From assembly GCA_019192545.1 (NCBI GenBank), contig JAHCMI010000051.1, positions 1 to 64,000 of the forward strand: 64,000 bases of DNA, in the 5' to 3' direction. Shown here piece by piece: positions 576-20,278 of this stretch (positions are counted from its first letter, which is position 1; every line of letters starts with the position of its first letter). The notes under the pieces were generated by a model. It was not told the DNA's origin, made no database searches, and saw only the letters and a program-made list of their open reading frames with translations. The DNA comes from Rivularia sp. MS3. GTDB lineage: Bacteria > Cyanobacteriota > Cyanobacteriia > Cyanobacteriales > Nostocaceae. Both the position numbers and the translations under genes were made by a program.

Positions 576-1303
576 CTTAAAACAGCAATCCTCGAATTAA
601 TTGCCGTTGGTGCTTCTGTCGGATATCACTGCTATCTTTAACAAACTAAAGACATTTGTTTTCTACTCGGATATATTACTGGCAATGCTGGTACAGAAGC
701 ATTATCAAGTCAAACTGCTGGTTGTATTGTGGAAGAAATGCTGAATAATTCTTACCCCCTTTTTGCTACTTATTCTCAAAGTCAACCTCTGATTCTCTAT
801 TTTGCTTTTTGAAGTCCGTATGTTTTCGAGTTGTAATGCCGCATCAGGAAAATTTTCAGCTATTTATCAAAATTTCAATAGTATTACCTAGATACAAATC
901 ATACTTTTATGGGCAATATATAAAGTAAGGCTAAAGTCTTATAAACGTTTATTTGCCTTGAATCTATGTGGCTTATTGCTTTTGTAAGCTGAAAAAGTGG
1001 GTTTATTTTCTAATTTACCAACTTGTGAAAAGTTATCTGAAAGCATAAACGACAAACTGACTGTAGTTCATAACAAAAATACTTGATTTATTTTTTAGCG
1101 TTCTTGTATTGCGAGGAATGTTCCTCGTCCCTATAGTTCACTGTAATGCAATAACTTCTTAGCTAAAAAAAAGTATCCCTATTTTTCGCTGATTTGCACT
1201 GTTAATTTAGATATTTTGGCACCATATGCCATGTCGAAATAGCTAAAATCACATGTTAGTTCGGTAAAGTTCCCTATTTATGACACGCGACTTTAGTGCA
1301 TCA

Positions 1304-4099
1304 ATGAAATTTATATTAAAGCGTTTGTATCCTAGTAAATATAGGATTTCTGACGCGAGAAAAAACGGTACGATAAATTTGTGTAGTAGTTTATTTACTA
1401 CAACATTTCTTTTGAGCTTTTTGGCTATACCAGCAAAAGCCGAAGGTTCAAAAGACTTAGTGGAAAATGGTGGAGATAGACCTTATACGGAATGGTCAAC
1501 AGCTACATCTGCGGGTATTGAACGTAAAACTAGGCTCAAGGTTTTTGTTAAAAGTGGAGAAACTATAAATCTTGGCTCCAGCGTAGATAACAGTTTTGAT
1601 AATAAAGATATAGTTTTACGTAGTCCTTCGGGTATAGAACAAATTTGTGATGTTTTGATATCCGGTGAAGGGTTTATAGATACCGTAGCCAAAGAAACAG
1701 CAGGACCTTTACCCAATGTTGGAGGTTATACACCGTGTACTTTTACGGCTACAGAAACGGGAATTTATGAAGTAGAATTTCACGCTCCTAAAAATTCAGG
1801 AGATCCACCTATCAGGTCGGCAACGGCTCAATTCCCTACAGTCAATTCCCAAGGACAAGCTGTAGCTGCTTGGGACATTACGGTTCGGGATAGTGGTGGA
1901 GATGCGACAATGGGAAGGGTATTTACAAACTATGTCGCGATGAACATGGGAGGTAGCGGTCAGTCTCTCAACTCAGAATTCTTTATTCAAACTAAAGATG
2001 GTTTTTTATATAGAACTGCAATGAATGGGGTAGACCCTTTCGGTTTTATTTTCTTTGGTAACAGTAGAGGATTTATTGACAAAACTGATAATAGTACTTT
2101 ATATCATTCTGCAAATGCAGGTAAAAATAATTTTACTCTGGATTCGTTTCAAGGGAATGTTGAGGTGCAGCGTCCTGATGTTCCCGATACTCTAACCAAT
2201 ATTACTCATTTAATATTTTTCAATTCTCCCGATCCAGAAACTTTAGATGAATTAGGGATTCCCCGTACACCAGCCATACCTGCAACCCCAACGAAGTTTA
2301 AATTTACTGGTGGTAATGGTGGAAGCGGCAACCAAACTTTCGTTGGTGTTGGAGGCAATTTCAGTTTTGATTCTATTAGTGCGGGTAGCTACGAAATTAT
2401 TATTGATACGGATGAAGATGGTATTTTTGACCCAAGTAAAGATAGAGTATTACAGAATATAGCGACGGTCGGTAGTAACGTCGTATCTTGGGATGGTCAA
2501 GATGCTAACGGTAATAATTTGGGTCCTCGTGCTAATAACGACCCCTATAGTGCCAGAATCAGACTGCGGACTGGAGAATATCACTTTCCAATGTTGGATG
2601 CCGAAAGTAATCCCACTGGTTTTGTAATTGAAATGCAAAATCCACCTACCGCATTCCCGACTGGATTTAACGAATTTACTGTTTACTATGATGACGAGAA
2701 CTATACTACTAGCAATGGCATCAATGTCAGTTTAGATGGCAATGGTGCTAGCAATCCTCGTAATGCTGCTACTGGAATAGATAGTTCTACCGGAACCCAC
2801 AGATTTAGTGGAGGGTATGGTGATTTCAAAGGAATTGATACTTGGTCTTATTTTCCTAGTGAAGGAACATCTGCGAACCTGATTATTACAAACGATAAAT
2901 CAGCAAATGTACAAGGTATAAAATCGGTACGTTTTCTTGAAGACAAAGATAATAGCGGTACGGTGACTGTAGGAGATACCGTTGAATACACTATTACTTA
3001 CAGTAATAATGCTCCTGAAGCTAGCACAGACGCAAATAATTTTGTAATTCAAGATGATTTACCACCACAATTAACTTACAATTCATCTCAAATTGTTTCA
3101 CAAACAACTGGTAACGATATTCAACTGAATACAAGCTATAACGGTTCTGGTGCATTGACTAACTCTGGTACTTTAAGAGTTAACGATGAAATTACTATTA
3201 AAATTGTCGCCACAATTAACAATAGAAATAGTGGGAACCCAATTAGCAACCAAGCCAATGCAACTTTCAATACACCTGATAACCCAGCCGCAACCGGAAA
3301 CGCTTTAACCGATGCTGATTCTGCGGGAGTGATTCAAGATAATCCACCAAGCGAAGGTAATGCTTTCAAACAAATTGACGATGATAGTCAAAATACTGGA
3401 AACGACCCTTCCAATACCGGAGATGACGAATCAACTATTATTAATGTCGAAGAATCACCTGTAGTAAGTGGTTCTCCAAAAATACTTTTAGTTAAGAGAA
3501 TTACCGCTATTAATGGGGTTGATATTAACAATTTTATTGACGACCCTAACACCATTGATGATAACAACTCTAACTGGCCAGATTCTGACCCTTCGAGTAC
3601 AAATCGTAATAACTTTTTGCGTGGAGCAATTAATGGTGGTTCAGTCGCTCCTGATGATGAATTAGAATATACAATCTATTTTCTTTCAATGGGTGAGACA
3701 GATGCTAGTAAATTAAAAATCTGTGACTTAATCCCGAATCATACTACTTTTATTCCTACTGCTTTTAACGGTTCAACACCTACAGATGGTGGATTAAATA
3801 CTGCAAATTTAGGTATTGCGATTTCTTTAGATAATACTAATTTTTCTCAGAATCCTACTGCTTTTCTTACTAACATTGCCGATAGCGATAGAGGAGAATT
3901 TTTCGCTGCTGGCAAAACACTATCGATGGATTGTTCTGGTAGTAATAATGGTGTTAATAGTAATGGTGCCGTCATTGTGAATATCGTCAATAAAGACAAC
4001 GCCGACCAAGATATTATACCTACCGCAAATGTTAACCAGACACAAGCTAAACCAGCTAGTTCCTATGGCTTTATCAGATTTAAAGTCAAAGTGAATTAA
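1304..4099 (+). CDS. Secreted DUF11-like repeat protein with conserved C-terminal two-Cys domain (family member 1)
   Basis: Long ORF (939 aa from 1280). The likely start is the internal ATG giving MKFILKRLYPSKYRI, followed by a signal-like hydrophobic stretch ending AKAEG. Contains a DUF11-like segment (SVRFLEDKDNSGTVTVGDTVEYTITYSNN...). The C-terminus VKRITAING...CDLIP...MDC...SYGFIRFKVKVN is shared with the next three genes. Confidence 0.85.
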   Translation: MKFILKRLYPSKYRISDARKNGTINLCSSLFTTTFLLSFLAIPAKAEGSKDLVENGGDRPYTEWSTATSAGIERKTRLKVFVKSGETINLGSSVDNSFDNKDIVLRSPSGIEQICDVLISGEGFIDTVAKETAGPLPNVGGYTPCTFTATETGIYEVEFHAPKNSGDPPIRSATAQFPTVNSQGQAVAAWDITVRDSGGDATMGRVFTNYVAMNMGGSGQSLNSEFFIQTKDGFLYRTAMNGVDPFGFIFFGNSRGFIDKTDNSTLYHSANAGKNNFTLDSFQGNVEVQRPDVPDTLTNITHLIFFNSPDPETLDELGIPRTPAIPATPTKFKFTGGNGGSGNQTFVGVGGNFSFDSISAGSYEIIIDTDEDGIFDPSKDRVLQNIATVGSNVVSWDGQDANGNNLGPRANNDPYSARIRLRTGEYHFPMLDAESNPTGFVIEMQNPPTAFPTGFNEFTVYYDDENYTTSNGINVSLDGNGASNPRNAATGIDSSTGTHRFSGGYGDFKGIDTWSYFPSEGTSANLIITNDKSANVQGIKSVRFLEDKDNSGTVTVGDTVEYTITYSNNAPEASTDANNFVIQDDLPPQLTYNSSQIVSQTTGNDIQLNTSYNGSGALTNSGTLRVNDEITIKIVATINNRNSGNPISNQANATFNTPDNPAATGNALTDADSAGVIQDNPPSEGNAFKQIDDDSQNTGNDPSNTGDDESTIINVEESPVVSGSPKILLVKRITAINGVDINNFIDDPNTIDDNNSNWPDSDPSSTNRNNFLRGAINGGSVAPDDELEYTIYFLSMGETDASKLKICDLIPNHTTFIPTAFNGSTPTDGGLNTANLGIAISLDNTNFSQNPTAFLTNIADSDRGEFFAAGKTLSMDCSGSNNGVNSNGAVIVNIVNKDNADQDIIPTANVNQTQAKPASSYGFIRFKVKVN

Positions 4100-4800
4100 T
4101 GATTGAATCAGAAGTTTAGGCATATACTACAGTCTGTACAACTTTTGATTAATAACGGCAAAGACCCATTTTTAAAAGGGTTTGAGGAGATATAAACGGC
4201 TGAGATACTTGATTTATCTTTGTGGTTGCGTAAATCTTGGTATATTTTGAATTATTTATATTAAGTATACAGTGTTGTATTCTGATTTTTTCAACTGAAA
4301 TATTAATCTCGTATCCTGAATATTTATATATCTTTTTTGCAAAAATAATTTATTGGCGGTAAAACAGTACACAGTAAAAGCAATGGTCTTTCAGTACTTA
4401 TTATGCTATCGGAATAGTTGTTTGAAGGCATAAATAAACAGAAAAAGCCAGAAAAATAGAATCTTTGCAAAGCATAAATATTAAGAATTTTTGCTGATTT
4501 TATAGCATATTAAGAACTAATGAATAAAAATATTTTTTAATATAAATTGAAAATTACACAAAAATATCACACATTCATTAGTACAATTATTTAAATCACA
4601 ACCAGTAAATTGTAAAATCTTTTTGAATTAGCTCTGAAAAATTATTTTTATCTCGCAATTATACTGAAGTCAACCTGCAAAACTAAAAGCTTTAATTGTC
4701 AATGAATAAAATGTTTATAACACAGTTTATTTGATATTCATCTAACAATTATATTTTTCATTAATTGAAAGTAGCAATCAATAATTTTCCGATTTATATT

Positions 4801-7800
4801 ATGAAATTTATATTAAAAAAATATACAGCTATATATAAAGCTCAAAAGTTTATATTCGGAAGCAGTATTAGTATTGCAAGTGCTTTAACGCTTATAACAG
4901 CCGGTGCTGCTAATGCCCAAGTAGGTATAGATAGTTTGAATGCTACTTACCAAAATGGTACTTCTAGTAGCTACAGCACTACAGTAGGAGACCCTTGTAA
5001 TACTGGAAATTATTCAGGTGGCTGTAATAGCAACATTAATATGCAGTTTGGCGTTGGTACTACCAATGACTTGATTTTATCTGGATTCACCGCCCAAGGA
5101 GACAGCTATTCTTTAGTTAGACTAACAGACGAAGTTGTATTCCGTCGTATCGACGGGCAAGGTGCCACCGGAGAAAGAAACCTAGTATTTTTTGAATACA
5201 ACACTAATAACCAAATTCGCTCTTCTTATACCAATACAATGGCTGGAGCAATGCTTGGTACCATCATTAACCGAGGTGTGGATAATGGTTTTTCTAATGA
5301 TGATAGTGTAGCAAGTAATAATATCGAGCGGATTGACTATATTATTGCCGGAGGTATGTCGGTTCCGGGTGTTTCTGCGAATGACATTGGTTTCTTAGTT
5401 TTGGAACGTAATGGAAACGACCCATTTCAAATTGCTGCAATCACATCTTTGGATGCCAGCGGTAAACCCAATGGATTTGGTCCTTTGAGAAGGGTAAATG
5501 CAAGTACTTGGGGAGGAAGCGGTTTTAATGTACGAACTGCTGTAATGCGTCGTGAAGAGAATGAATCAAACTTTCGACCTTCACACCTGGTTGGCAATCA
5601 AGAAATACACGCTGTCTATACTTCTATTGGTTCTCTGGGCTTAACTACCGGTCAAACTTTTTATGGCTATGCTCTTTTCCCTAATGATATTGACCAAAAC
5701 AATGACTTAATTAATCTGACTGACTTTCCGACAGATACTTCTGGTGCTTCTGGTGAAGGGGGATTAGATTTAATGGCTGGTGGAGGAATTTTTATTAAGG
5801 ATGGTTTGACGACTGTTTCAGGTCGCTTATATGAAGACTCGGACGGTGACGATAATTTAGATGGTAATGAAGCAAATTTACCTGCAAATATTACTGTCAG
5901 ATTATTAGATAATAATGATAATCAAATTGCTACTGATGTAACCGATAGTAACGGTGATTATGAATTTATTGGTGTAGCTAACGGTAACTATAAAATTCAG
6001 GTAGATACCAATGATTCTGATATTCCTGCTGGATATACTTTGGGAACACCGAATGATTTGTCAATAAATGTTTTGGGTAGTCCAGTCACAAATCAAAATT
6101 TTGGCTTTGATGTCAGTAATATTGGAGGAGGTATTCCACCCGCTCCATATCCAACAAACGTTTGTTTCCCCATTGCTGACGGTGGTGGTGGAAATGGAGG
6201 AAACGATTGGCTGACTAGATTGAGTAAAATAAGCGGAAATGAAACAGCAGTCGGAACTGGAACCGGAACTAATAATATTGAGGCAAGTGCTTTACAGCCG
6301 ATTACTGGTACCTTCTATGCTGTAAATCAAAATAGATTAGGTACTATAGACTTTGAGACTGGTGTATTTACATCAGGAGCAAACAATACTGGTCGTCTTA
6401 GAGACTCATCAGGAAATCAGATCAATGCTGGCAATGTAGATATTGATGGAATGTCTTTCGACCCCACCGAAAGCTCAAATGATGTATTGTATGCTTCAGT
6501 GCGAACGGCTAATGAAGATGTTTTGATTAAGATCGATATTGCAACCGGAAGACGGGTTAGAAATGCTTTTCTTAACGGTACGTCTGATTATGTCAAAATT
6601 TCTGCAACCGATGGTTTAGCCGATATTGATGCTATAGCTGCTGGTATTGACGGTAAGCTGTACGGTGTTGCTAATCAAGGCGGTAATGGCGCTCAGCTAC
6701 TTGTAGAAATTAATAAGCAAACTGGAGCAACTACCAAAATCGGTAATATCGGTAATGGTTTAGATATCGAAGGTTTAAGTATCGATTATCAGGGTAAATT
6801 CTATGCTACCTCCGGAAATGGTCGGAAACTATACGAGCTTAATCCAGCTAATGCTCAAATTATCCAAACTTGGAATTTAGGGGTAGGAAACGATTACGAA
6901 ACCGTTGCTTGTCGGCTGTCACCTGCGGATTTGGGCATTACCAAAACTGTGGATAAACCTAATCCCAACCCATCGGAAACTATCAAATACAATCTTACCG
7001 TGACTAACAACGGACAGAGTATTGCTTCTGATGTTGAGGTGACTGATAGTCTTCCTGCTGGAGTTACTTACAGCAGTGACAATCCTAGCAAAGGCAGTTA
7101 TGATAGTAACACTGGTATCTGGAAAGTAGGTGTATTAGAAACTGGTCAGAGCGCTACCTTAGAAATTACTGCCACAGTTAATAACAATGCTAGCGGTACG
7201 ATTACTAACGATGCAACAGTCACCAATGCCGACCAGCCAGACGATAATTCGGCGAATAATACAGATAATGCAGATATTACAATTCCTTCCCCTAGCAACG
7301 ATTTGACTGTCTCCGGTACTGTTTACGAAGACTTCGGTGCGGGTGGGGATAATAATAACACCTTCGATAATGGTGAAGGAACTATCGGTAACGTTACGGT
7401 AGAATTATTTGCAGATAACAACAGTGATGGTCAACCCGATGGTGCAGCAATTAAAACTGTTGTCACCGACGCGACGACAGGAGATTATCAATTTACACAA
7501 GTTGCTAGTGGTAACTATTTAATTCGAGTTAATACCAGAGATACTGATATCCCTAGTAGCTATGCCATTGGTACTCCTAATCCTATTCAAATCAATGTTT
7601 CTAGTGATATTGTTGACCAGGATTTTGGTTTTAATACTGTATCTAAAACCTGTCCTTCCGGTAGTTTCTTACCCGAACAGACATTCCTTGATTTTCGCAA
7701 TCCACAGCTAGTATCTGGTAATGCTTTAAGTCTAGGTGCTATCTATCGATTTTCAAATGTCGCTACCGATGTTGATGCTTTAGTAGAAATCAAATCTTTT

Positions 7801-8892
7801 AATAACGCTACTTTGGCTCAAATAGACCGTAACGATTTTGGAATACAAAGCGCTTTTCAACCTGAAGTTAGAGCCAATTCTACAAATGTCGGTGAATATA
7901 GCGTTGATTTTGATATTCAGTTCGTGCAATCTGGTACTAGTACACCAGTTGAACTGAGAAAAATATTAGCTACTGGTATTGATATTGACGGAGATAATGT
8001 TAGAGTTCGAGAAGCTTCCGAGCTTGGTGGTAATAGATTTACTTCTTACGCTATTGATAGCGACTCTAGGTTAACTGCAACGGAATTAAGTTCTACCAGA
8101 GTTAAGTTTGAAAGTACCACAACCTTTAACTTAGCTAATATTACTATCAATTCTTTAAACCAAGGTAGTGCTTTCTATGACAATAGCGTTGAGAAAATAG
8201 AATACCGAGCCGGTTTAATTATTGACCCCGGTAATGCTACAAATATTGCTAATCAAAGACTTACATCTTTAGTTTTTGACTGCGTAGAATATAACCTTGC
8301 CGTTACTAATACACCAAACGTAATATTGGTTAAAAGAATTACCGCAATCAATGGCAACCGCAACCAAAACCCTAACGACGGTACTCCATTAAATCAATTT
8401 GTAGACGATACTAGTTCCCCACAACAAGGCAACGATAACTCTCCAAATTGGCCTGATAACTATCTGCTTGGTGCTATCAATGGAGGGAAAATCAAACCCG
8501 ATGATGAAATTGAATATACGATTTACTTTCTCAACATTGGTAACGGTGATGCTGCTGACGTGAGGGTTTGCGACAGAATTACTAACAATCAGAACTTTCA
8601 GCCAGATACTTACGCTGTGGGAAGAGGTATTCAACTAAAGCTGGGAAATAGCGCTCAGACTAACTTAACTAATGTTAACGATAATAGCGATCGCGCTCAA
8701 TTAATCACCCCTGGTGGTGTTGTTCCTGGCAACTGCAATATCCAGGGTGCCAACAGTAACGGTACGGTACAAATTGACATTACTGGTAATACAGGTTCAC
8801 CTTCATTAAGTACCATGCCCGGTTCGACAGGGAAAGGTACGCCGAATAATTCTTACGGCTTATTCAGATTTAGAACCAAAGTCCAACCGTAA
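4801..8892 (+). CDS. Secreted SdrD_B-like/DUF11-like modular protein with conserved C-terminal two-Cys domain (family member 2)
   Basis: Long ORF; ATG at 4801 gives MKFILKKYTAIYKAQ... and a signal peptide ending AANAQ. Two SdrD_B/Cna_B-like modules (VSGRLYEDSDGDDNLDGNE..., VSGTVYEDFGAGGDNNNTFDNGE...), a DUF11-like module (ADLGITKTVDKPNPNPSETIKYNLTVTNNG) and the shared C-terminal domain. Confidence 0.85.
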   Translation: MKFILKKYTAIYKAQKFIFGSSISIASALTLITAGAANAQVGIDSLNATYQNGTSSSYSTTVGDPCNTGNYSGGCNSNINMQFGVGTTNDLILSGFTAQGDSYSLVRLTDEVVFRRIDGQGATGERNLVFFEYNTNNQIRSSYTNTMAGAMLGTIINRGVDNGFSNDDSVASNNIERIDYIIAGGMSVPGVSANDIGFLVLERNGNDPFQIAAITSLDASGKPNGFGPLRRVNASTWGGSGFNVRTAVMRREENESNFRPSHLVGNQEIHAVYTSIGSLGLTTGQTFYGYALFPNDIDQNNDLINLTDFPTDTSGASGEGGLDLMAGGGIFIKDGLTTVSGRLYEDSDGDDNLDGNEANLPANITVRLLDNNDNQIATDVTDSNGDYEFIGVANGNYKIQVDTNDSDIPAGYTLGTPNDLSINVLGSPVTNQNFGFDVSNIGGGIPPAPYPTNVCFPIADGGGGNGGNDWLTRLSKISGNETAVGTGTGTNNIEASALQPITGTFYAVNQNRLGTIDFETGVFTSGANNTGRLRDSSGNQINAGNVDIDGMSFDPTESSNDVLYASVRTANEDVLIKIDIATGRRVRNAFLNGTSDYVKISATDGLADIDAIAAGIDGKLYGVANQGGNGAQLLVEINKQTGATTKIGNIGNGLDIEGLSIDYQGKFYATSGNGRKLYELNPANAQIIQTWNLGVGNDYETVACRLSPADLGITKTVDKPNPNPSETIKYNLTVTNNGQSIASDVEVTDSLPAGVTYSSDNPSKGSYDSNTGIWKVGVLETGQSATLEITATVNNNASGTITNDATVTNADQPDDNSANNTDNADITIPSPSNDLTVSGTVYEDFGAGGDNNNTFDNGEGTIGNVTVELFADNNSDGQPDGAAIKTVVTDATTGDYQFTQVASGNYLIRVNTRDTDIPSSYAIGTPNPIQINVSSDIVDQDFGFNTVSKTCPSGSFLPEQTFLDFRNPQLVSGNALSLGAIYRFSNVATDVDALVEIKSFNNATLAQIDRNDFGIQSAFQPEVRANSTNVGEYSVDFDIQFVQSGTSTPVELRKILATGIDIDGDNVRVREASELGGNRFTSYAIDSDSRLTATELSSTRVKFESTTTFNLANITINSLNQGSAFYDNSVEKIEYRAGLIIDPGNATNIANQRLTSLVFDCVEYNLAVTNTPNVILVKRITAINGNRNQNPNDGTPLNQFVDDTSSPQQGNDNSPNWPDNYLLGAINGGKIKPDDEIEYTIYFLNIGNGDAADVRVCDRITNNQNFQPDTYAVGRGIQLKLGNSAQTNLTNVNDNSDRAQLITPGGVVPGNCNIQGANSNGTVQIDITGNTGSPSLSTMPGSTGKGTPNNSYGLFRFRTKVQP

Positions 8893-9033
8893 TTAACGTA
8901 AAGATGCGATATATAAACAATACGTTATATTCAGCGTGCTTGCTCTTTGTATATATATCGCGTCTCTACAGGTGAATGCATCTCTTACAAATTGTCATAT
9001 CAAATTAAGTAAGAATTTTCGATCTTTAAAGTC

Positions 9034-10797
9034 ATGTCAAATTCAAAATCTTTTTCTAGTGTGTCCCGTAAAAACAAGCAAAGTCGCCGTAATAATCGTA
9101 TTTACCGCTCTTTGCTAATGACATTTGTAATTGCAGGTAGCAATTTACTATCAGCATTACCATTATTAGCTGAAACACCCGGTACAGTAATTAATAACCA
9201 AGCAACTGGTAGTTTTACAGATCCAGCTAACAACAACAACGAAGTACTGATTGAATCCAACATAGTTAAAGTAACTATTGCGGAAGTCGCAGGTATTACC
9301 GTGACTCCAGACGGTACGGAAGAAGCTCCTGCTGGAGTGAATGGTGCTGGTGAATTTCAAGGCAACGGCAAAATTAACCCAGAAGATGTAGTTTACTTCC
9401 AGTATAAAATTACTAACGTTGGTAACGACCCGACCAAATTCTTTATTCCTGGCGCTCCTAGCGGTGTTACTAACGGTGCTTTGAACGGAACCGGAACTAT
9501 AGAAGTTATAGGGTACGATCCAGATGGTAACAATCAGACAAGTATTACTCCTGAAGCTATTCCTGCTACTGGTGCCGAAACAGGAACTATTACAGGTTTA
9601 CCTAATAATGGTTCAATTGCTCCGGGTGGTAGTATAACTATCCGCGTTCCTATTAAAGTTGATACTGGATTACAAGATGGCGATAAGGTTACCGTGATTA
9701 TGGGTGATACCCCGCCAAACGATAATTCCAGCGATACCCAAAACCAAGACTATAGCGACAATGGCAACAACGGAGATATTTATACCGTAGATAACAACGG
9801 AACGGAAAATGGTGACTCAGATGGCGACCCTGTAAATGGCGTTCGTGAAGCAAGTGCCAACCAGGATGTAACGGTAACAAACGCTAACAGTATTTCCGGT
9901 ACATTGTACGAAGACGATGGTGGAGCAGATACCGGTAACGATACATTTGATAACGGTGAAACAAAGCTACCAGAAAACATTACCGTTAACTTGTATGAAG
10001 ATACTAACGGTAATGATGTTCTCGATCCTGGTGAAAACACACCCGTTCAGACTGTTGAAACCGATGCAAACGGCGATTATATTTTCCCAGACGTTGCAGA
10101 TGGCGATTACATCGTAAAAGTAGATGAAACAGATACTGATATTCCTGAATACTATACTCCAGGTACAGTTGAGGATTTACCTGTAACTGTTAATGGTGCT
10201 TCAGAAGCAGATAAAGACTTCGGATTTGATAAAAATGCTCCAGATGTAATCATGGTCAAGCGGATTACCAAGATTAACGGTCAAACAGTCAATCCCAACG
10301 ATAGCAAGCCTTTAGGTAGTTTCGTAGATGACCCTTCAGACGATAATGATACCAGTGCTAACTGGCCTACTGGTTATGTAGTTGGTGAAATCGATGCAGG
10401 TAGAGTTAGAGTCGGTGACGAAATCGAATACACTATTTACTTCCTCAATGCTGGAAAGTTCAAAGCTGAAAACTTGAGAATTTGTGACGCAATCCAAGGT
10501 CAGCAAGATTTGAAAGCCGATGCTTACGGTGCTGGTAATGACTTGCAGTTAAACGTATCAAACAACGGTGACACTAATTTAACAAGTGCAAGCGGTGACG
10601 ATCGCGCTGAATTCATAGCTGCTAACGGTACCGTTCCTGCAAACTGCAATCTTCAAGTTCCAAATGATAACGGCACCTTGGTGGTTGACGTTACAGATGC
10701 AACCTTGACCGAAATTCCCGGCTCAACAGCGCCAGGAACGGCAAATTCCTACGGCTTAATTAGATTTACAACTGTTGTCAGAGATGACAATCCTTAA
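9034..10797 (+). CDS. Secreted SdrD_B-like protein with conserved C-terminal two-Cys domain (family member 3)
   Basis: 587 aa ORF. N-terminal SNLLSALPLLAETPGTVINNQATGSFTDP, one SdrD_B-like module, C-terminal domain VMVKRITKINGQ...SYGLIRFTTVVRDDNP. Confidence 0.85.
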   Translation: MSNSKSFSSVSRKNKQSRRNNRIYRSLLMTFVIAGSNLLSALPLLAETPGTVINNQATGSFTDPANNNNEVLIESNIVKVTIAEVAGITVTPDGTEEAPAGVNGAGEFQGNGKINPEDVVYFQYKITNVGNDPTKFFIPGAPSGVTNGALNGTGTIEVIGYDPDGNNQTSITPEAIPATGAETGTITGLPNNGSIAPGGSITIRVPIKVDTGLQDGDKVTVIMGDTPPNDNSSDTQNQDYSDNGNNGDIYTVDNNGTENGDSDGDPVNGVREASANQDVTVTNANSISGTLYEDDGGADTGNDTFDNGETKLPENITVNLYEDTNGNDVLDPGENTPVQTVETDANGDYIFPDVADGDYIVKVDETDTDIPEYYTPGTVEDLPVTVNGASEADKDFGFDKNAPDVIMVKRITKINGQTVNPNDSKPLGSFVDDPSDDNDTSANWPTGYVVGEIDAGRVRVGDEIEYTIYFLNAGKFKAENLRICDAIQGQQDLKADAYGAGNDLQLNVSNNGDTNLTSASGDDRAEFIAANGTVPANCNLQVPNDNGTLVVDVTDATLTEIPGSTAPGTANSYGLIRFTTVVRDDNP

Positions 10798-10924
10798 TTT
10801 CTTAAATCTAATCATTTAGTAATAGGTTCGTAGTAAGTGATTTATCGCTTTCTTCAAAAGAGTTAAATCCTTACTAACAAACAACCTATAAGGCTACTAG
10901 TCGATTGCATAAATTTTAAAGGCT

Positions 10925-10988
10925 TATAGTAGTGCGAGCATCTTGCTCGCTAGCGGTTATTCACCGAGCAAAATGTTCGCACTATAAA
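10925..10988. repeat. Small inverted-repeat (MITE-like) hairpin
   Basis: TTATAGTAGTGCGAGCATCTTGCTC and GAGCAAAATGTTCGCACTATAA are near-complementary arms. Confidence 0.55.
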
Positions 10989-11200
10989 TACTATAAATAT
11001 TTCTCCTTAAAATGAATGCGGTGGAGTACTAATAGTCAATAGCATAAATTCTGAATATTTCGTTTTTATCTAAATAATTGGGAGACATAACATATCACGT
11101 CTCTACAATAATTATAAGAAATACAAAAATTGCAAAATAATATTTATACGGGTTTGTAATTAATAAATTAATAAATGATTTTAAATAGAAAAAAATAACT

Positions 11201-13210
11201 ATGCTAAATTATAATTTTGAATTCAAACCGCCTCGTATAAATAAACTATTAATCACATTACTATTAACTAGCAGTAATTTTTTATCAGCATTACCATTAT
11301 TAACAGCTAATGCCGGAACGGTAATTAATAACCAAGCTACGGGTGGTTATACTGACCCAAGCAATAACAATAATAATAAAGAAATTGAATCAAATAACGT
11401 AAAATCTGAGACTACTAAACCTAATACAGTTTCCGGCACTCTCTACGAAGATAGAGATAGTAATAACAATTTTAATGACACAAACGAGCCAACTTTACCA
11501 GCTAATATTACTTTAAAACTGCTGGATACTAATGATAACCTTATCAAAACAACAGTTACACAAACAGACGGTACTTACATTTTTACTGACGTAGCTGACG
11601 GTGATTATAAAATTCAGGTAGACACAACAGATACAGATATTCCTAATGAATATACTCTAGGTACAACAAACGATTTACCCATCACTGTTTCTCAGAATGC
11701 AATTACTAACCAAAACTTCGGCTTCGATGCACAAGCCGCATTTTGCAGCATTGGCGGTGGTGATGTCGATTCAGCAGTGAATCCGTATATCAGTAATGAA
11801 GTAAGAAGAAATGTAATTGCAACTCGCGATATTACAGATACTTTAGATGATGACTGGCGTGCGGCAGCTACGGGAGGAGCTTCTTCAGGTAACATAGTTC
11901 AGCCTTGGTTTGGTACCACTAATGCACCCGGAAGCGTTAGCAATTTTAATTATGTCGATCCAGCAACAGCTGCAAATACAAACACAAGTGTAGAATTAGT
12001 AGAAATTCCGATTAATGACGTTGCTTTGTGCGTAGGAGAAACAAACAATTCTGCTTCTAATCCCATTCTTGGCACTGGTAATAGTTTGCAAGCATCTTCA
12101 CCACGCCCATCGAGCTTATATAATTCCAGCAATCAACCAGCTTTCTGGAATCAAACCAATATTCCTCCATCAACTACAGATAATAAACGTTTCGCAGTCC
12201 GCTTCACCTTTGATTCTCCCGTAAAATCTTTTGGTGCTTGGTTTGGGGATTTAGAAACCCGTACCCAAGACGGAACCCCCGCATTTTTAAGACTATTAGA
12301 TGCGTCAGGAAATCGTATTGGTAAAGATATTGCGATTCAACCCAATCAAATTTCCGATGGTAATAGCACTCAAGCAGTTAACCAAAGTCAATGCGGCAAT
12401 TCAGGTAATGATACAGGTTGCGGAAACGAATCAACTCGCTGGGTAGGTTTTATTGATAACAACGCCATACCTCGCGTTAAACAAGTATTAGTTATAGTTG
12501 GTGATGATGATATCAACGATAACGGCGATACGGAAATTCTGAGTTTTATCGGTGCTAACATTGTTCAAGGCAATCCCAATGTTCTGTTGATAAAGCGGAT
12601 TACAGGGATTAATGGTGAAACAATTAACGACGGTAGGGACTTAGCTAGTTATATTAATGACTCTGAGAATCCTTATGATGATAATAAACTTGAAGGAGCA
12701 AAACCACCGAATTTTCCATCTCCAGATACAGATAAATGGCCTAATACTACCGAAGATATCAGCAGTACATTTTTAATAGGTGAAACCAACGGTGGAAAAG
12801 TCAAACCAGACGATGAAATAGAATATACAATTTACTATCTATCTACAGGTAATATCGAAGCGAAAAACGTATTATTCTGCGACAGAATACCATCCAACGT
12901 TAGCTTTGTCCCTAATAGTTTTAATGGTGAAGCGAATCAAGCCGCAGGAGGATTGCAAAATGTGGATAGAGGAATTTTATGGTTAAAAGACGGTAATATT
13001 GAATCTTTAAGTAATTCTGAAGATGGAGATTTAGCGCAATATTTTCCTCCAGGAGACGAGCCTTCGAGGGTTTATCCTAAAATTAAGTGTGATGGTGCAA
13101 ATACGAACGGTGCGATTGTAGTGAATTTAGATAATTTACCCAACGCTACTGCTCCCGGCACTCCTAATAGTTCTTATGGGTTTATTAAATTTAGGGGAAA
13201 GGTGAAGTAA
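11201..13210 (+). CDS. Secreted SdrD_B-like protein with conserved C-terminal two-Cys domain (family member 4)
   Basis: 669 aa ORF. N-terminal SNFLSALPLLTANAGTVINNQATGGYTDPSNNNNN is nearly the same as member 3. One SdrD_B-like module; C-terminal LIKRITGINGE...SYGFIKFRGKVK. Confidence 0.85.
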   Translation: MLNYNFEFKPPRINKLLITLLLTSSNFLSALPLLTANAGTVINNQATGGYTDPSNNNNNKEIESNNVKSETTKPNTVSGTLYEDRDSNNNFNDTNEPTLPANITLKLLDTNDNLIKTTVTQTDGTYIFTDVADGDYKIQVDTTDTDIPNEYTLGTTNDLPITVSQNAITNQNFGFDAQAAFCSIGGGDVDSAVNPYISNEVRRNVIATRDITDTLDDDWRAAATGGASSGNIVQPWFGTTNAPGSVSNFNYVDPATAANTNTSVELVEIPINDVALCVGETNNSASNPILGTGNSLQASSPRPSSLYNSSNQPAFWNQTNIPPSTTDNKRFAVRFTFDSPVKSFGAWFGDLETRTQDGTPAFLRLLDASGNRIGKDIAIQPNQISDGNSTQAVNQSQCGNSGNDTGCGNESTRWVGFIDNNAIPRVKQVLVIVGDDDINDNGDTEILSFIGANIVQGNPNVLLIKRITGINGETINDGRDLASYINDSENPYDDNKLEGAKPPNFPSPDTDKWPNTTEDISSTFLIGETNGGKVKPDDEIEYTIYYLSTGNIEAKNVLFCDRIPSNVSFVPNSFNGEANQAAGGLQNVDRGILWLKDGNIESLSNSEDGDLAQYFPPGDEPSRVYPKIKCDGANTNGAIVVNLDNLPNATAPGTPNSSYGFIKFRGKVK

Positions 13211-13235
13211 TAGGGAATAGACAATCGGTAATTGA

Positions 13236-14160
13236 TTACAATTTTTCAATTTCTCCCGAGCTTAAACCCGTAATTTCTGCAATTAAATTAATATCAAAAC
13301 CCCTGGCTTTCAAAGTTTTAGCCATTTCGATTTTTGCTTGATTCTCTCCTTCTTCTCTTCCTGCTTCTCTTCCTCTTAACTCTCCCGTAACTTCCGCACT
13401 TTCAATAATGCTAATTGCATATCTTCTATCTTCAAGATATTTTTGATATGCAGCTTTTTCTGCTTGTGATAAATTCTCAACTTTTAAATTATCTTTTGCT
13501 TGAGCCAGTCCTCTAGCTTGAAATTCGTCTTTGATTTCGCTATTTTTCAAGAAATATATCCACTCATCTAAACTATCTTGGGCTACATCATTAAAATTGT
13601 TAACTCTTAAAACGTAATATTCCGGGAATATTTCATAAACCTCTTCAATTTTAAATACTTCTTTCTGCAATTGCGAAGGTTCTAGTTTATCGTGAATATG
13701 CATTCCCCAAAAATCTACTCTACCTTTATAAATATAGTCTCTTCCTTGTCCGAGAGAAAAATAAACGATATTAATTGAATAAACTTTTTTAACTTTACCG
13801 TAAGCTTCTCCTTTACCAAGATATTCGCTAATTAATGCCGATACACCATGAAGCATTCGATGAAAATAATCATTTTCGGCGCTGTTTTGGACTTCTATTA
13901 ACAAAAACTCATTTTTAGTATTTTTAGCTAAAATGTCAACTCAATTTAATTTATTTTCCTCTGTAAATCGATTGCTTTCGCTTTCTAAAATCGAATCAAT
14001 TTTGATATCTTCCTTTAATAACTCGCTGATAAAACCTTCTAAAACTACGTAATTGGCTTTATCTCGCAATAGTTTTTTAATTGCCCAGTCGAAGCGGATA
14101 TGTGTTCCTGCGATGATTCTGTTTGCGATTAAAAGCGGTCTGGGTTATTTTTAGTTTTAT
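13236..14160 (-). pseudogene. Rpn family/PD-(D/E)XK_2 nuclease-like (transposase-associated) gene, interrupted by one in-frame TGA
   Basis: The ORF 13904-13236 begins in mid-domain (FLLIEVQNSAENDYFHRML, start TTG). In the same frame upstream the sequence reads LIANRIIAGTHIRFDWAIKKLLRDKANYVVLEGFISELLKEDIKIDSILESESNRFTEENKLN*VDILAKNTKNE. The upstream limit is approximate. Confidence 0.75.
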
Positions 14161-14358
14161 TGTAGAAGATTATTGACAAATTAATTTTTATAAACAGGAA
14201 TGGCCGCAATCGTCACAATACTCGGTTGGTGCGTGACATCACAACCCTTATTAATGCGTTAAAAATTTAATTAAGTGTCACAGCACCCTACGAAGAAAAA
14301 ATCGTAGTTGCGTATGTTTTCTGCTTTGCTTGAACGCTAAAACGCAACTACAAATCTC

Positions 14359-14616
14359 TTATCCGCCACTGACTGGTGGAATTAATACGACTTCATCCCC
14401 ATCATTTAGAAGAGTATCCGGTTCGACAAAATTTAAATTTATGCCAAATCTGGTTACATCTCGCCATTTTTCAAGTTCGGGATGCTTTTTGATTAAATAT
14501 TCTCTGACTTGCGATACCGGCGTGTTTTCGGGAAATTCCAGGATTAACTCTGGTTCGTTATAAGCTTCTTGATAAGCTGCGAATAATTTAACTGCGATCT
14601 TGATTGAATTAGACAT
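14359..14616 (-). CDS. MoaD/ThiS family sulfur-carrier-like protein
   Basis: 85 aa, ubiquitin-like MoaD pattern (IAVKLFAAYQEAY...NDGDEVVLIPPVSGG) with terminal Gly-Gly. Confidence 0.85.
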   Translation of the reverse strand: MSNSIKIAVKLFAAYQEAYNEPELILEFPENTPVSQVREYLIKKHPELEKWRDVTRFGINLNFVEPDTLLNDGDEVVLIPPVSGG

Positions 14617-14783
14617 GGGGGATTGAGCATCGGGGATTGGGCATCGGGCATTGTTTTGCTAATTATTATTATTATCGAAAAGAAGAACCGCAGTAGCTGA
14701 ATATTTCTTTCTAAAGATAGTGTGTTATCTCTAAAGCATCTTCTAAGGTGATAAGCTAAGTTACATAGGAAGAATTCAAGAAT

Positions 14784-14972
14784 ATGAGCGAAGATAAAGC
14801 TAAAAATCAAGCCCAAAAAAGTAATTCTAAGGAAGAAGCACCAGAATTAAGTCCGGAATTACTTGATAGAATCAAAAACCCTGCACCAATTGACAATACA
14901 ATTCTCAATCAATCCCCAGAAGAATTAAAAGGCAATCCCGCAGTATCACCTGAAATGCTCGACGATAGGTAA
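14784..14972 (+). CDS. Small hypothetical protein, 62 aa, charged
   Basis: ORF with ATG (MSEDKAKNQAQKSNSKEEAPELSPELLDRIKNPAPIDN...). Internal xxELSPELLDRIKNP / xxAVSPEMLDDR similarity. Confidence 0.45.
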   Translation: MSEDKAKNQAQKSNSKEEAPELSPELLDRIKNPAPIDNTILNQSPEELKGNPAVSPEMLDDR

Positions 14973-15095
14973 CAGTTACTAGTTAGAAGGAGCAAGTAGC
15001 AATTATTGAAAATGTAGTGGGAGCGTCTTGCTCCCTAGAAAAATATCCCTCCTTTCTCCTTTCTTCCCCCTTCATCTTCCTAATTCCCAATTTCC

Positions 15096-16019
15096 ATGTT
15101 TCCCTTAATCTACTCGGACGAATTTCTCGAACACCTTACCGGAAGAGGACATCCGGAAAAGCCGGAGCGTTTAAGTGCTGTTGTTTCAGCTTTGAAAGAA
15201 GCTGTTTTTTCCGATCGAATTGAATGGCGATCGCCGACTCCTCTTGCCCAAAATTCGCCGCTTGATTTCCTGGGGGAAATACATTCACCGCGCTATATCC
15301 GTAGAGTGCGAGATATTGCTGCTGAGGGAGGTGGCTTTTTGGATACAGATACTTATGTTTCTCCCCGCAGCTATGATGTAGCGTTGTTAGCGGTGAATGC
15401 TTGGCTTGATGGAGTGGATATTGTTTTAGAAACTGGTAAACCCGCTTTTGTTTTAGCACGTCCTCCCGGACACCATGCCGAAATAGACTATGGTATGGGC
15501 TTCTGTTTGTTTTCTAATGCCGCAATTTCTGCTTATCATGCTTTGAAAAAACCCGAAGTTAACCGCGTTGCAATTTTAGATTGGGATGTGCATCACGGTA
15601 ACGGTACTCAGGCAATAGTAGAAAATAATCCCGACATTGCTTATTGTTCGCTGCACCAATACCCTTGTTATCCGGGAACGGGTAAATCCTCAGAAAGGGG
15701 TATTAACAATAATGTATTGAATTTACCTATGCCTCCTAGCAGCGATATTAGTAATTATCAAGCAGGATTTGAAAAAGAGGTACTCCCGTTTCTATCAAAC
15801 TTTCAGCCAGATTTATTAATCGTTAGTGCCGGTTATGATGGCAACGCCGATGACCCCTTAGCAAGGATAAATTTGCAACCAAAAGACTACGGAATATTTA
15901 CTAAGTATTGCTTAAAAGTGACCGGTAAAATATTATTCGGTTTAGAAGGTGGTTACGATTTACCAACACTTTCTCAATCAGTTATAGCAACCGTTGAAAA
16001 ATGTTTAAATAGGGAATAG
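15096..16019 (+). CDS. Histone deacetylase/AcuC/AphA family protein
   Basis: HDAC motifs RPPGHHAE, DWDVHHGNGTQ, SAGYDGNADDPLA, GLEGGYDL. Confidence 0.93.
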   Translation: MFPLIYSDEFLEHLTGRGHPEKPERLSAVVSALKEAVFSDRIEWRSPTPLAQNSPLDFLGEIHSPRYIRRVRDIAAEGGGFLDTDTYVSPRSYDVALLAVNAWLDGVDIVLETGKPAFVLARPPGHHAEIDYGMGFCLFSNAAISAYHALKKPEVNRVAILDWDVHHGNGTQAIVENNPDIAYCSLHQYPCYPGTGKSSERGINNNVLNLPMPPSSDISNYQAGFEKEVLPFLSNFQPDLLIVSAGYDGNADDPLARINLQPKDYGIFTKYCLKVTGKILFGLEGGYDLPTLSQSVIATVEKCLNRE

Positions 16020-16177
16020 GGCATTGGGCATTGGTAGTTGGGGATTGGGCATAGGAGTGAGGGAGGGAGAGAGGGAGAGTGAGGGAAAAGATAACTAGTT
16101 TTACTCATTACTCATTACTCACTACTTGCTACTTGCTACTTACTACTTACTACTTATAACTGCTCGCTGTTCACTGT

Positions 16178-18112
16178 TCACTGCTCAATGCTCGCTGCTA
16201 ATTGTTCATCGATAGCGGTTTCTTTATAAAGTTCTAAATCAAACCAAAATGTAGTACCAATACCTACTTCACTGACTAAAAATACTTTGGCATGATGTTT
16301 ATCTTCAAGGATATTTCTAACAATTGATAATCCTAAACCGGTTCCTTCAAGGGTATGAACGCGGTTTTCAACGCGGAAAAAACGGTCGAAAATGGCAGCT
16401 TGATCTTCTTGAGGAATGCCGATTCCAGTATCGCCAATTTCTACACGCACGCGGGATATAGAATTATTTGAAAGTGGTTGCCCATCAATTTCGTAAGCAC
16501 GAAGCGCAACTTTACCACCGGCTTTAGTAAATTTTAATCCGTTGCCAATTAAATTAGCTAGTACTTGTAATAATAAATCGTAGTGCCCTCTTACTAAAGG
16601 CAAATTAGCAGCTATATCTTGAATTAACTCAATTCCTTTGTCTTTAGCATTTAACTTATAAATACGCAAAGTTTGTTCGATAGCTTGACTTAAATCAACT
16701 GCATCCATGCTGTAGCTACGCCCAGATTCTAATCTTGATAAATCTAGTACGTCATTGACTAAACGAGCCAGTCTATCTGTTTCATTGTTAACCGTAAGCA
16801 AAAATTCTTGTCGCTGTTCTACGTCTAAATCTTCGCCGAATTCATGTAATGTTTCTATAAAAGATTTTATATTAAATAATGGCGTTCGCAATTCGTGGGA
16901 AACGTTACTAATAAATTGACTTTTAGCTTCATTAAGTTCAACTTCGCGAGTAATATCTTGGATAGTAATTGCAATACCTTTGATACTTTCTCGTTGCTGG
17001 TTAACAACTGTAGTTAAAAGAATACGTATAGTTCTTTTTATTGGTTCCTTTATGGTAATGCGGAATTCAGCACGTTCTAATTCTCCCGCAGTCATTTTAT
17101 CTAAATAACGATTAATTTCTATCTGCATTTGTGAAGGTAAATAGTCTAAGACGCTATTACCAACAACTTCAACTTGTTCCCAACCAAAAATAGTTTTTGC
17201 TGTCGGATTGACTAATATTACGTGCATTTCGTTATCAATCAAAACAGCGCCATCGGCGATTGTAGAAACCAAAGTTTCCAATTTAGCTTTTTCAGCAGTT
17301 AATTCTTCAATATTTTGTTCTTCATAGCGCTCCAATCGTTCTGCCATTTCGTTGAAGCTAGAAATTAATTCCTTGAGTTCTCCGGAAAACTCTAGTTCAA
17401 TTCGCTGTTTAAAATTCCCTGCTGCAATTTGCTTTACTCCTACCAATAACTCTTTTATAGGTTTAGTAATAGTTAAAGCATTAATTACTCCTCCCAAAAT
17501 TACCATTACCCAAATCGAGATAAACACCGCAATTGTGACATCACGAGTAAAATTGGTAGAAATGACGGCTGTTTGATTGGGATTAATGCCAACTGCCAAA
17601 ACCCCGAGATATTTACCATTTGCTTTTAAAGGCACAAACACATCAGTAACTTCCCCATCCGGGGAATGATGGTGACGTACCATTGGTTTTTCGACATCAG
17701 CAGCATAATCTTCCGGAAGCTGAATTCTACGCTCAATAGTCAGCGAATTTCCTACCTCCGGTTCCCAAAACGGAATACCAAAAAATATTTTGCCAGTTTC
17801 ATCAGCATAAAGCATATAGCGAACGCTGGAAGTGCTGCTATAAAAGCGTTGAGAAAACTGTGCTATCTCGGTGTAATTTTCTTCAGCTAAAAACGGCGAG
17901 ACATTAGCAGCTAGCAACAAACCCAAATCCCGCCCAAAACGAGTATCGTTAAGACGTGCATCTTGCTGAATAGTGTTTACCGCCCAAAATGTTAAACCGC
18001 TCATCACCAAAGATACAACTAAAGTGACAGCTGCTAATAGCCTTGTCTGAAGATTAAAATCCGACCACCAATTAGCGATCGCGTCCCGAATTGTTTTAAA
18101 AATGGCTAGCAT
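16178..18112 (-). CDS. nblS: Membrane sensor histidine kinase, NblS/Hik33-like (HAMP-PAS-HisKA-HATPase)
   Basis: N-terminal TM, HAMP, PAS, H-box SQFISNVSHELRTPLFNIKSFIETL, G-boxes GDTGIGIPQEDQ and GTGLGLSIV. Adjacent to purD on the same strand. The symbol rests on recognition of the overall protein. Confidence 0.85.
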   Translation of the reverse strand: MLAIFKTIRDAIANWWSDFNLQTRLLAAVTLVVSLVMSGLTFWAVNTIQQDARLNDTRFGRDLGLLLAANVSPFLAEENYTEIAQFSQRFYSSTSSVRYMLYADETGKIFFGIPFWEPEVGNSLTIERRIQLPEDYAADVEKPMVRHHHSPDGEVTDVFVPLKANGKYLGVLAVGINPNQTAVISTNFTRDVTIAVFISIWVMVILGGVINALTITKPIKELLVGVKQIAAGNFKQRIELEFSGELKELISSFNEMAERLERYEEQNIEELTAEKAKLETLVSTIADGAVLIDNEMHVILVNPTAKTIFGWEQVEVVGNSVLDYLPSQMQIEINRYLDKMTAGELERAEFRITIKEPIKRTIRILLTTVVNQQRESIKGIAITIQDITREVELNEAKSQFISNVSHELRTPLFNIKSFIETLHEFGEDLDVEQRQEFLLTVNNETDRLARLVNDVLDLSRLESGRSYSMDAVDLSQAIEQTLRIYKLNAKDKGIELIQDIAANLPLVRGHYDLLLQVLANLIGNGLKFTKAGGKVALRAYEIDGQPLSNNSISRVRVEIGDTGIGIPQEDQAAIFDRFFRVENRVHTLEGTGLGLSIVRNILEDKHHAKVFLVSEVGIGTTFWFDLELYKETAIDEQLAASIEQ

Positions 18113-18450
18113 CTCAAATATAAGTTGTTAGTATAATAGTTTTTTAAATACAACCCCAACAACTAAAAGTTAACAGCTAAGTTGACAAAGAGGGATATTG
18201 TTGGGGATTGGTAATATGTAATATGTAATGGGGCATTGGGCATTGGGCATTAGGAACTGGCATTGAATTGAAAGATTTAGAACTTATTTAAAAGTTAGAA
18301 ATTCTGTATATTTATTCTCTGCATTTTAAAGGCAGTACAACCACAATCGTCGTTCCTATAGCAAAATGCTTTGCTGCCGGTACCTTGCTAAATATATATT
18401 TATATATATATTCCGATGCGTCATGCCCTATGCCCATACCTTATTAACCA

Positions 18451-19728
18451 CTACCCATTATTCATTACTCGATGTCCGATATCTCGGCGATAATACATGC
18501 CCTCAAAGTGAATTTTTTCAATACCGGCATATGCTAATTGCAAGGCTTGCTTGAAGTTATTTCCGACTCCAGTTACATTTAAAACCCGACCTCCATCTGT
18601 AATTAACTGTTGCTTTAACTCGGTTCCAGCATTAAAGACTGTGACTCCTGTTGCCTCTGCCTCGTCAATACCTGTAATTACTTTACCTTTTTCATAAGCT
18701 CCGGGATATCCACCAGAAGCAGCAACTATGGTAGCCGCAGTTCCTTGTTTCCATTCGATAGGCGGCATTTCCTCTAACCGCTGCTCAATACAGGCAAGCA
18801 TTAATTCTTCTAAAGGCGTTTCTAAGAGTGGTAATACCACTTGGGTTTCTGGGTCGCCAAAACGACAGTTAAATTCCAAAACTTTGAATTCACCCGTGGT
18901 TGTTACCATTAGCCCAGCATAAAGTACGCCTCGGTAATCAATATTTTTAGCTTTTAGGGCATTTATAGTTTTATTTAAAACTTGTTTTTGAACTCGCTCC
19001 ATTAAATTCACGGTGGCAATAGGTGTTGGTGCGTAGGCTCCCATTCCACCTGTATTTTCTCCGGTGTCTCCTTCACCGATACGTTTGTGATCTTGGGCTG
19101 GTAATAAAGCTCTAATCGTTAAACCATCCGTCAAAGCTAAAACAGATACTTCTTGTCCGGTTAAACATTCTTCAATAACTACGAATTCCCCAGCACTGCC
19201 AAACTGACCGTTAAATATAGCTTCAACCGCCTCTACTGCTTGATTTAAGCTTGTGGCGACAGTAACACCCTTACCTGCTGCTAAACCATCAGCTTTGATG
19301 ACAATGGGTACCCCGTGGTTTTTGATATAGCTTTTTGCAGGGGCTGCTCGATTAAATACCGCACTATTAGCAGTCGGAATATTAGCTTCGAGCATAAGAC
19401 TTTTTGCCCATGCTTTGCTTGCTTCTATCTGCGCTCCTGCTTTTGTCGGGCCAAATACTTTTAGCCCTTTTGACTGTAGATAATCGGTAATTCCTTTTGC
19501 TAAAGGTACTTCTGGCCCTACAACTACTAAATTGATATCTTCTTGTAGAGCAAAATTACTTATCCCCTCGAAATCATCTACCTGTAAAGAAATATTTTTA
19601 CAGCGATTCAAACTAGCCGTACCACCATTCCCCGGTACGCAGACAACTTGCTCAACTTGGCTTGATTGAAGAAGTTTCCAAGCCAGAGCATGTTCTCTTC
19701 CTCCACTACCTACAACTAAAATTTTCAC
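18451..19728 (-). CDS. purD: Phosphoribosylamine-glycine ligase (GARS)
   Basis: MKILVVGSGGREHALAWKL..., GPEVPLAKGI, IKADGLAAGKGVTVA, FNCRFGDPETQ. Confidence 0.97.
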   Translation of the reverse strand: MKILVVGSGGREHALAWKLLQSSQVEQVVCVPGNGGTASLNRCKNISLQVDDFEGISNFALQEDINLVVVGPEVPLAKGITDYLQSKGLKVFGPTKAGAQIEASKAWAKSLMLEANIPTANSAVFNRAAPAKSYIKNHGVPIVIKADGLAAGKGVTVATSLNQAVEAVEAIFNGQFGSAGEFVVIEECLTGQEVSVLALTDGLTIRALLPAQDHKRIGEGDTGENTGGMGAYAPTPIATVNLMERVQKQVLNKTINALKAKNIDYRGVLYAGLMVTTTGEFKVLEFNCRFGDPETQVVLPLLETPLEELMLACIEQRLEEMPPIEWKQGTAATIVAASGGYPGAYEKGKVITGIDEAEATGVTVFNAGTELKQQLITDGGRVLNVTGVGNNFKQALQLAYAGIEKIHFEGMYYRRDIGHRVMNNG

Positions 19729-20154
19729 TTATTATCCTCGAAGTCACCTTGATGATGGGGAGCATCCTAGATATTTGGATTCATAAATGCTTTATGAAGG
19801 AGCATATATCTTGTTTGCTCTAAATATCGAGGGAACTAAATGTCCCCGATGATGCATTTTATTTTTTTCACCAATTTTAATACTTATCGAGGTTTAACGG
19901 TATGCCTTCGATCTTGGATTTGGGGAATTCAGAATTTCTTTTGTCGCTTTATAAGATTACCAATGCTTGGGAAGGGCAGGGGGTAGAAAAAATTTATACC
20001 CGTCATATTTAATGAAAACGAGTAATAGTACTTCACCACATTCATTTTGATGACTTGATAAGACTCCTGCTCCGGTTGGGTGAAGCGTGTCCGATAGGAC
20101 ATAGCGCAACCCATCATCCGAGTTGGGTTACACTGCGTTTCACCCAACCTACTA

Positions 20155-20278
20155 GTCTGTCTCGTTAATTCTGATGGGCATATCGTAAATATAAAAAATA
20201 TTTTCTTCCCCCACTCCCCCACTCTCCCCCTCTCCCCCTCCCTGCCTTCACCCGTCAATTTTAATAAAAACGAGTACT
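20155..20278 (-). repeat. Polypurine-core dispersed repeat (inverted copy of 35911-36052)
   Basis: The reverse complement GACGGGTGAAGGCAGGGAGGGGGAGAGGGGGAGAGTGGGGGAGTGGGGGAAGAAAATATTTTTTATATTTACGATATGCCCATC matches 35939 onward almost exactly. Confidence 0.75.

Follow-up and report, generated by a model that had tools for sequence, protein, structure and literature searches.

Why four consecutive exported proteins with differing N-terminal halves should all close with the same domain is the question raised by the analysed window, a stretch of 64,000 nucleotides from Rivularia sp. MS3. P1 to P4 are four consecutive open reading frames (ORFs) on the forward strand, each of which ends in a common C-terminal domain (CTD) of 185 to 211 amino acids (AA) with two cysteines. 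This tandem arrangement, described in an earlier note on this DNA, was confirmed. The explanation that we consider probable is that the CTD is the acceptor of a naturally split DUF11/CLIPPER domain, that the N-terminal strand of a partner protein completes it in trans, probably with a Lys-Asn isopeptide bond, and that the coupled proteins are anchored by two further proteins, D and A. The features of the window are given below, with donor, acceptor and the resulting classes as predicted roles.

1280–4099, + strand: P1, 939 AA, exported; putative acceptor CTD, without N-terminal donor strand, 'tip' class
2951–3286, + strand: complete internal DUF11 domain of P1, with Pfam DUF11, TIGR01451 and TIGR04226 isopeptide-domain matches
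3476–4096, + strand: CTD of P1 (putative split-DUF11 acceptor), with Lys739 at 3494, Cys815 at 3722, Asp816 at 3725 and Cys885 at 3932
4765–8892, + strand: P2, 1375 AA, exported; SdrD_B and complete DUF11 modules; putative acceptor CTD
8314–8889, + strand: CTD of P2, with Lys1190 at 8332, Cys1269 at 8569, Asp1270 at 8572 and Cys1324 at 8734
9034–10797, + strand: P3, 587 AA, exported; putative donor strand and acceptor CTD, 'adaptor' class
9172–9216, + strand: putative donor strand of P3, mature N-terminus ETPGTVINNQATGSF, candidate isopeptide Asn55 at 9196
10240–10794, + strand: CTD of P3, with Lys409 at 10258, Cys484 at 10483, Asp485 at 10486 and Cys538 at 10645
11201–13210, + strand: P4, 669 AA, exported; putative donor strand, SdrD_B (11441–11632) and putative acceptor CTD, 'adaptor' class
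11315–11350, + strand: putative donor strand of P4, mature N-terminus GTVINNQATGGY, candidate isopeptide Asn44 at 11330
12575–13207, + strand: CTD of P4, with Lys465 at 12593, Cys560 at 12878, Asp561 at 12881 and Cys630 at 13088

Two of the CTD starts in the earlier note were correct, whereas those at 3477 and 12574 are one base out of frame, and position 1304, taken there as the start of the first ORF, is the second ATG of a reading frame that opens at 1280. The ORF of P2 opens with TTG at 4765, and its translation probably starts at the ATG at 4801. The upstream halves do differ as described: DUF11 occurs in P1 and P2 (complete module of P2 at 6928–7278) and SdrD_B in P2, P4 and, weakly, P3. 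The N-terminus of P1, EGSKDLVENGGDRPY, is as in many Nostocales single-CTD genes, and its ortholog in Calothrix parasitica NIES-267 has 79% identity. In that genome, the P1 ortholog is followed by a gene matching window positions 13236–13904, and P2 to P4 (window positions 4765–13210) have no positional counterpart. This suggests that tips and adaptors were recently gained or shuffled in this lineage.

The CTDs of P2 to P4 are 35–45% identical to that of P1, and a search of the same genome with the P3 CTD returned the other three at E = 6e-51, 1e-15 and 4e-13, which excludes a chance likeness of the four. Both cysteines are kept in all of them, as had been read by eye, and the Lys of the (V/I)KRIT motif and the C-D pair proved to be invariant as well. 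Beyond the window, a full CTD was found in 136 distinct ORFs drawn from 80 named cyanobacterial loci and further genomes. In 136 of 136 it ends 0 to 5 residues before the stop, with one copy per ORF that is never internal or repeated, so that the expectation of an always C-terminal position was borne out. This is not a selection effect, since motifs within the CTD, and not its position, served to find the loci. Divergent members are also terminal and show the pattern G(F/Y)(I/V)RFRV(K/R)V followed by the stop. Signal-peptide-like N-termini were present in 88 of 93 complete CTD ORFs, under a loose rule that was also passed by 89 of 192 control ORFs. Among 81 non-redundant CTDs (70% set), Asp77 is kept in all 81, Cys76 and Cys141 in 80 each, Lys7 in all 78 that are ungapped there, and Asn145 is 91% conserved. 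A plasmid search for the CTD gave matches in cyanobacteria only. The layout described earlier, in which differing exported N-termini share one fixed domain at the C-terminus, is thus upheld by all 136 ORFs and agrees with the anchoring or polymerising role proposed in the note.

The comparison with DUF11 indicates what kind of domain this is. DUF11, renamed CLIPPER, is a Lys-Asp-Asn isopeptide domain with a solved structure (9IFR), in which the isopeptide bond joins Lys715 and Asn806, Asp748 is presumed to be catalytic and the Asn lies near the domain end (PMC12617251). Isolated CTDs reached 12.6–20.1 bits against Pfam DUF11, below the cut-off of 24.6, and TIGR01451 (DUF11-type repeat) was above its cut-off at the P4 CTD. 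The CTD has an insertion of about 36 AA after the Lys strand and a Cys-loop insertion, and whole-domain HMM alignments are therefore ambiguous at the C-terminal end. Whole-domain HMM and hhalign comparisons, which found the core and were ambiguous beyond the insertions, were replaced by block-wise scoring. Here, DUF11 profiles cleaned of CTD and G2 sequences (G2 being a neighbouring gene, see below) were used because our first DUF11 profile had absorbed CTD sequences. The blocks of the CTD are collinear with DUF11: the Lys strand matches columns 2–8, the PGDE..CD.IP core columns 15–43, the NGAVVV strand columns 60–71 and the final CTD strand columns 74–84, with Lys and Asp at columns 6 and 40. 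The CTD stops near column 84, and the N-x-A last strand with the Asn at column 94 is missing. The match of the core block is strong and that of the last strand moderate, its score being equalled by 10 of 500 permuted tails. AlphaFold modelled the CTD of P3 with a pLDDT above 90 over most of its length and the rest of the protein poorly, and Foldseek matched this CTD model to 9IFR (prob 0.97, TMt 0.51, with a weak E-value of 0.08) and, also with a weak E-value, to the isopeptide pilin RrgB.

Judged by its sequence, the CTD is a divergent domain of the DUF11/CLIPPER superfamily rather than an unrelated new fold, and it keeps two of the three isopeptide residues, Lys and Asp. The earlier view that it belongs to no named family is hereby revised, and neither is it an ordinary DUF11 repeat, being terminal only and missing the final strand. 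With CLIPPER domains (PF01345, TIGR01451; 9IFR; PMC12617251) it has in common the superfamily, the Lys and Asp columns, a probable Ig-like fold, SdrD_B neighbours and the occurrence in exported surface proteins. Descriptions of CLIPPER domains, however, show them whole, mostly internal and in tandem, with the bond formed within one chain, whereas the CTD occurs at the terminus alone, is without the Asn strand and carries the insertion after the Lys strand and the Cys loop.

A strand of the kind that the CTD lacks is found at the mature N-termini of other proteins, including two in the window. In sequence, the mature N-termini ETPGTVINNQATGSFTDP of P3 and GTVINNQATGGYTDP of P4 resemble the closing part of a DUF11 domain, and their strands scored 7.8 and 11.3 with a donor PSSM, for which the 99% background is 3.2. 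This PSSM was derived from internal DUF11 last strands of the first profile (CTD sequences included), with the D proteins left out, and its consensus, ANATGTITNTATVTGP, corresponds to ordinary DUF11. The motif N-x-[AG] occurs among the first 24 residues of the mature protein in 34 of 36 D and 6 of 6 G1 proteins, the products of two cluster genes listed below, compared to 17 of 138 other signal-peptide-like ORFs; with a stricter donor motif, the numbers are 30/36 for D and 4/138. The donor list in the block scoring was hand-aligned on N-x-A, which makes its register circular, and an unaligned PSSM scan served as the independent test. It ranked the N-termini of D (p = 2.5e-16) and G1 (p = 7e-5) above a background that includes cytosolic ORFs passing the crude signal-peptide rule. 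Some D donors carry N-x-G, which counts against the split-domain explanation. The same type of scan did not find a clear donor strand at the N-terminus of P2, and only a minority of CTD proteins has one. These donor-bearing proteins follow a two-gene rule: 12 of 13 are from loci with at least two CTD genes, compared to 11 of 87 without such a strand (p = 1.5e-8, with locus kinship ignored), and the thirteenth is P4 itself, which lies in a short stretch. In the monomeric AlphaFold model of P3, which had few donor rows, its own donor strand was not docked in its own CTD, an observation against the split-domain explanation, which predicts pairing between molecules.

Alternatively, the CTD could be a DUF11-type stalk domain that is complete in itself, carries an additional disulfide loop and is terminal by descent, any isopeptide bond being internal via Asn145. 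The superfamily similarity, the conservation of Asn145 and the high-confidence model of the CTD are in line with this. The final CTD strand, however, fits best at columns 74–84, so that Asn145 and Asn147 fall near DUF11 column 60 and not 94, the domain is never internal or repeated, unlike DUF11, and both the donor motifs and the two-gene rule of the adaptors would be left unexplained. This alternative is considered very unlikely.

The split-domain explanation requires partner proteins, and a gene cluster with the conserved order G1-G2-D-A-B-CTD, of which some loci lack some parts, contains candidates for them:

G1: DUF7925 protein of 835–915 AA with a putative donor strand and an acceptor-like end
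G2: protein of about 190 AA with an acceptor-like end
D: DUF11 and SdrD_B protein directly upstream of A, with a putative donor strand and no acceptor end
A: Ig and large outer-membrane barrel protein of 1200–1900 AA
B: beta-helix and OmpA-domain protein of about 700 AA
CTD genes: one to seven, after B

In the genome of Rivularia sp. MS3, these genes are distributed over four contigs: G1, G2, D and the beginning of A are on C11, B and the remainder of A on C46, three CTD genes on C27, and P1 to P4 on C121, the contig of the window. They probably form one cluster, because Calothrix parasitica NIES-267 has counterparts of the C27 genes (39–86% identity) and of P1 (79%) in the same order. This upstream operon, the three additional CTD genes on C27 and the donor strands of P3 and P4 go beyond the earlier note. 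The genome holds two further A systems. More than a third of the sampled cyanobacterial genomes have the CTD, and its occurrence is tightly coupled to that of A: of 194 genomes, 70 have both, eight the CTD only, three A only and 113 neither (Fisher p = 1.6e-39). In the same scan, D was found with A in 72 of 73 cases. A CTD variant without A or D was found in six picocyanobacteria-like genomes, which counts against the split-domain explanation. In the small-genome cyanobacteria L125, L128, L129, L155 and L156, a variant ending in IRFEV.. occurs without A or D, in L156 near a VWA-domain gene, and may belong to a different partner system using the same domain.

Among the scanned operon proteins, no chaperone or usher family was found, the matches being DUF11, SdrD_B, DUF7925, porin-like, OmpA and beta-helix. 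The AlphaFold model of A has a mean pLDDT of 52.5, with most of the barrel half at 60–87. Foldseek related it to outer-membrane barrels (SlpA/SDBC, TonB-receptor-type) with low TM-scores, and a search of solved structures with A gave no match. Due to these low TM-scores, A is named only a barrel here. In this genus, A (L142 8471–14158, L188 3079–7182 and L189 3–974) carries near its N-terminus tandem copies of a unit of about 25 AA (NGNYVLALEPFLNEQKPQEFPI), and the present assembly breaks within this protein (C11/C46).

The linkage to, and co-occurrence with, a large outer-membrane barrel, together with the strictly C-terminal position and the signal-peptide-like N-termini in 88/93, would also be compatible with a C-terminal secretion or sorting signal. 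In such a type IX-like system, A with B would recognize the folded CTD, and the N-x-A strands would be unrelated. The type IX secretion CTD (Por_Secre_tail, PF18962) is likewise a C-terminal Ig-like domain on varied exported proteins with a large barrel partner. However, PF18962 had no match in the genome, the sequence of the CTD derives from DUF11, and SprA_N (PF14349) had no match there either, which is a weak argument as the control was also without a match. A sorting signal would further leave unexplained why a DUF11 domain is cut before its Asn strand with the Lys and Asp invariant, why D, G1 and the adaptors carry donor strands, and why the stalk and D form one chain in some Proteobacteria. 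The classical secretion-sorting option of the earlier note is hence unlikely, and less likely than split-domain coupling.

The Proteobacteria in question are Pelagibacterium and Eleftheria (Alphaproteobacteria), in which a long DUF11-type chain and a D-type end form one polypeptide beside a barrel gene. This is the fused counterpart that is expected if the split parts join. A plasmid of Acinetobacter haemolyticus carries a similar cluster. Its homolog of A, 2008 AA long, is fused to D and has GQIIQNIAYASYQ in the mature N-terminus. Next come an OmpA gene and a protein of 978 AA whose start (IQRSFLNLGFE) resembles that of some cyanobacterial tips and which has an acceptor-like end with Lys, Asp and QESLYFGIKLN before the stop. 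A G1-like gene on this plasmid (L190 9840–12043) is annotated as several short ORFs and is probably broken.

For split-domain coupling, the following mechanism is proposed. The subunits would be exported by Sec, and the donor-only D, made beside the barrel A, would act as the base that offers a donor strand. An acceptor CTD would take up this strand (motif I-x-N-x-A), which would restore the whole DUF11 fold and place the Lys and Asp of the CTD and the Asn of the donor for an enzyme-free, autocatalytic isopeptide bond. Such a bond is probable, since the catalytic-type Lys and Asp are kept in the CTD and the Asn comes with the donor. Proteins with donor and acceptor (G1, and P3 and P4 in the window) would lengthen the chain, and acceptor-only CTD proteins (P1, P2 and most others) would cap it as variable tips. 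For the resulting structure, we infer an adhesive or sheath function.

A sub-case of this mechanism is donor-strand complementation that is solely non-covalent, without the isopeptide bond. It draws on the same complementarity, on the G2 sequences read here, which are without the Asp and yet end in the same strand as the CTD (a point that also weighs against the main explanation), and on the fact that known donor-strand fibres are mostly non-covalent. Without a bond, it would be difficult to account for the Lys in 78/78 and the Asp in 81/81 CTDs and for the Asn that nearly all D donors carry, and the purely non-covalent case is therefore regarded as improbable. The most far-reaching version of split-domain coupling, a natural sortase-free covalent system in cyanobacteria and Acinetobacter that builds head-to-tail Lys-Asn fibres with outer-membrane anchoring and exchangeable tips, is put forward tentatively, as a possibility that falls somewhat short of even chances.

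Several known systems resemble parts of the proposed one. In SpyTag/SpyCatcher and DogTag/DogCatcher, the predicted logic is the same, with a terminal strand bearing the partner residue and the Lys in the other half. Those pairs, however, are laboratory splits, whereas here a CnaA-like DUF11 would be naturally split, with the Asn on the donor. In chaperone-usher, type V and archaeal thread filaments, the N-terminal strand of one subunit completes the fold of the next, as proposed here, and for the archaeal threads an intermolecular isopeptide bond has also been proposed (PMC9715654). Here, too, there is a free strand at the N-terminus that fits the one missing from the acceptor, but the folds of those fibres are others and the subunits here are large mosaics. 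The single-chain fibrillar adhesin B9T28_05395 of Acinetobacter silvestris also combines an adhesive N-terminus, a CLIPPER stalk and OmpA-type anchoring. It is one polypeptide, whereas here the tip, the linker, the base, the barrel and the OmpA protein are each encoded by a gene of their own, with products that are proposed to be joined via split domains. In the open-access literature, subscription papers aside, no description of a split or intermolecular DUF11 was found.

If the proposed coupling holds, Gram-negative bacteria would naturally use a tag/catcher-type reaction that has so far been laboratory-made by splitting isopeptide domains, and would assemble modular fibres on their surface with neither sortase nor usher. 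A large number of proteins now annotated as hypothetical or DUF11 would gain a function, the arrays in which variable exported proteins share one constant end would be explained, and non-pathogenic organisms would become a source of new orthogonal tag/catcher pairs.

Some further observations concern the surroundings of these genes. An ORF of 1079 AA at window positions 55248–58484 (+ strand) had no Pfam match at 1e-5. The CTD array is bordered at 13239–13904 (- strand) by a PD-(D/E)XK family transposase-like gene (PF12784), which has a homolog at the same place in the relative's genome. On the plasmid of Synechococcus sp. NIES-970 (L194, AP017960.1), positions 4586–20456 hold G1-G2-D-A-CTD in this order, with all genes annotated as hypothetical protein.
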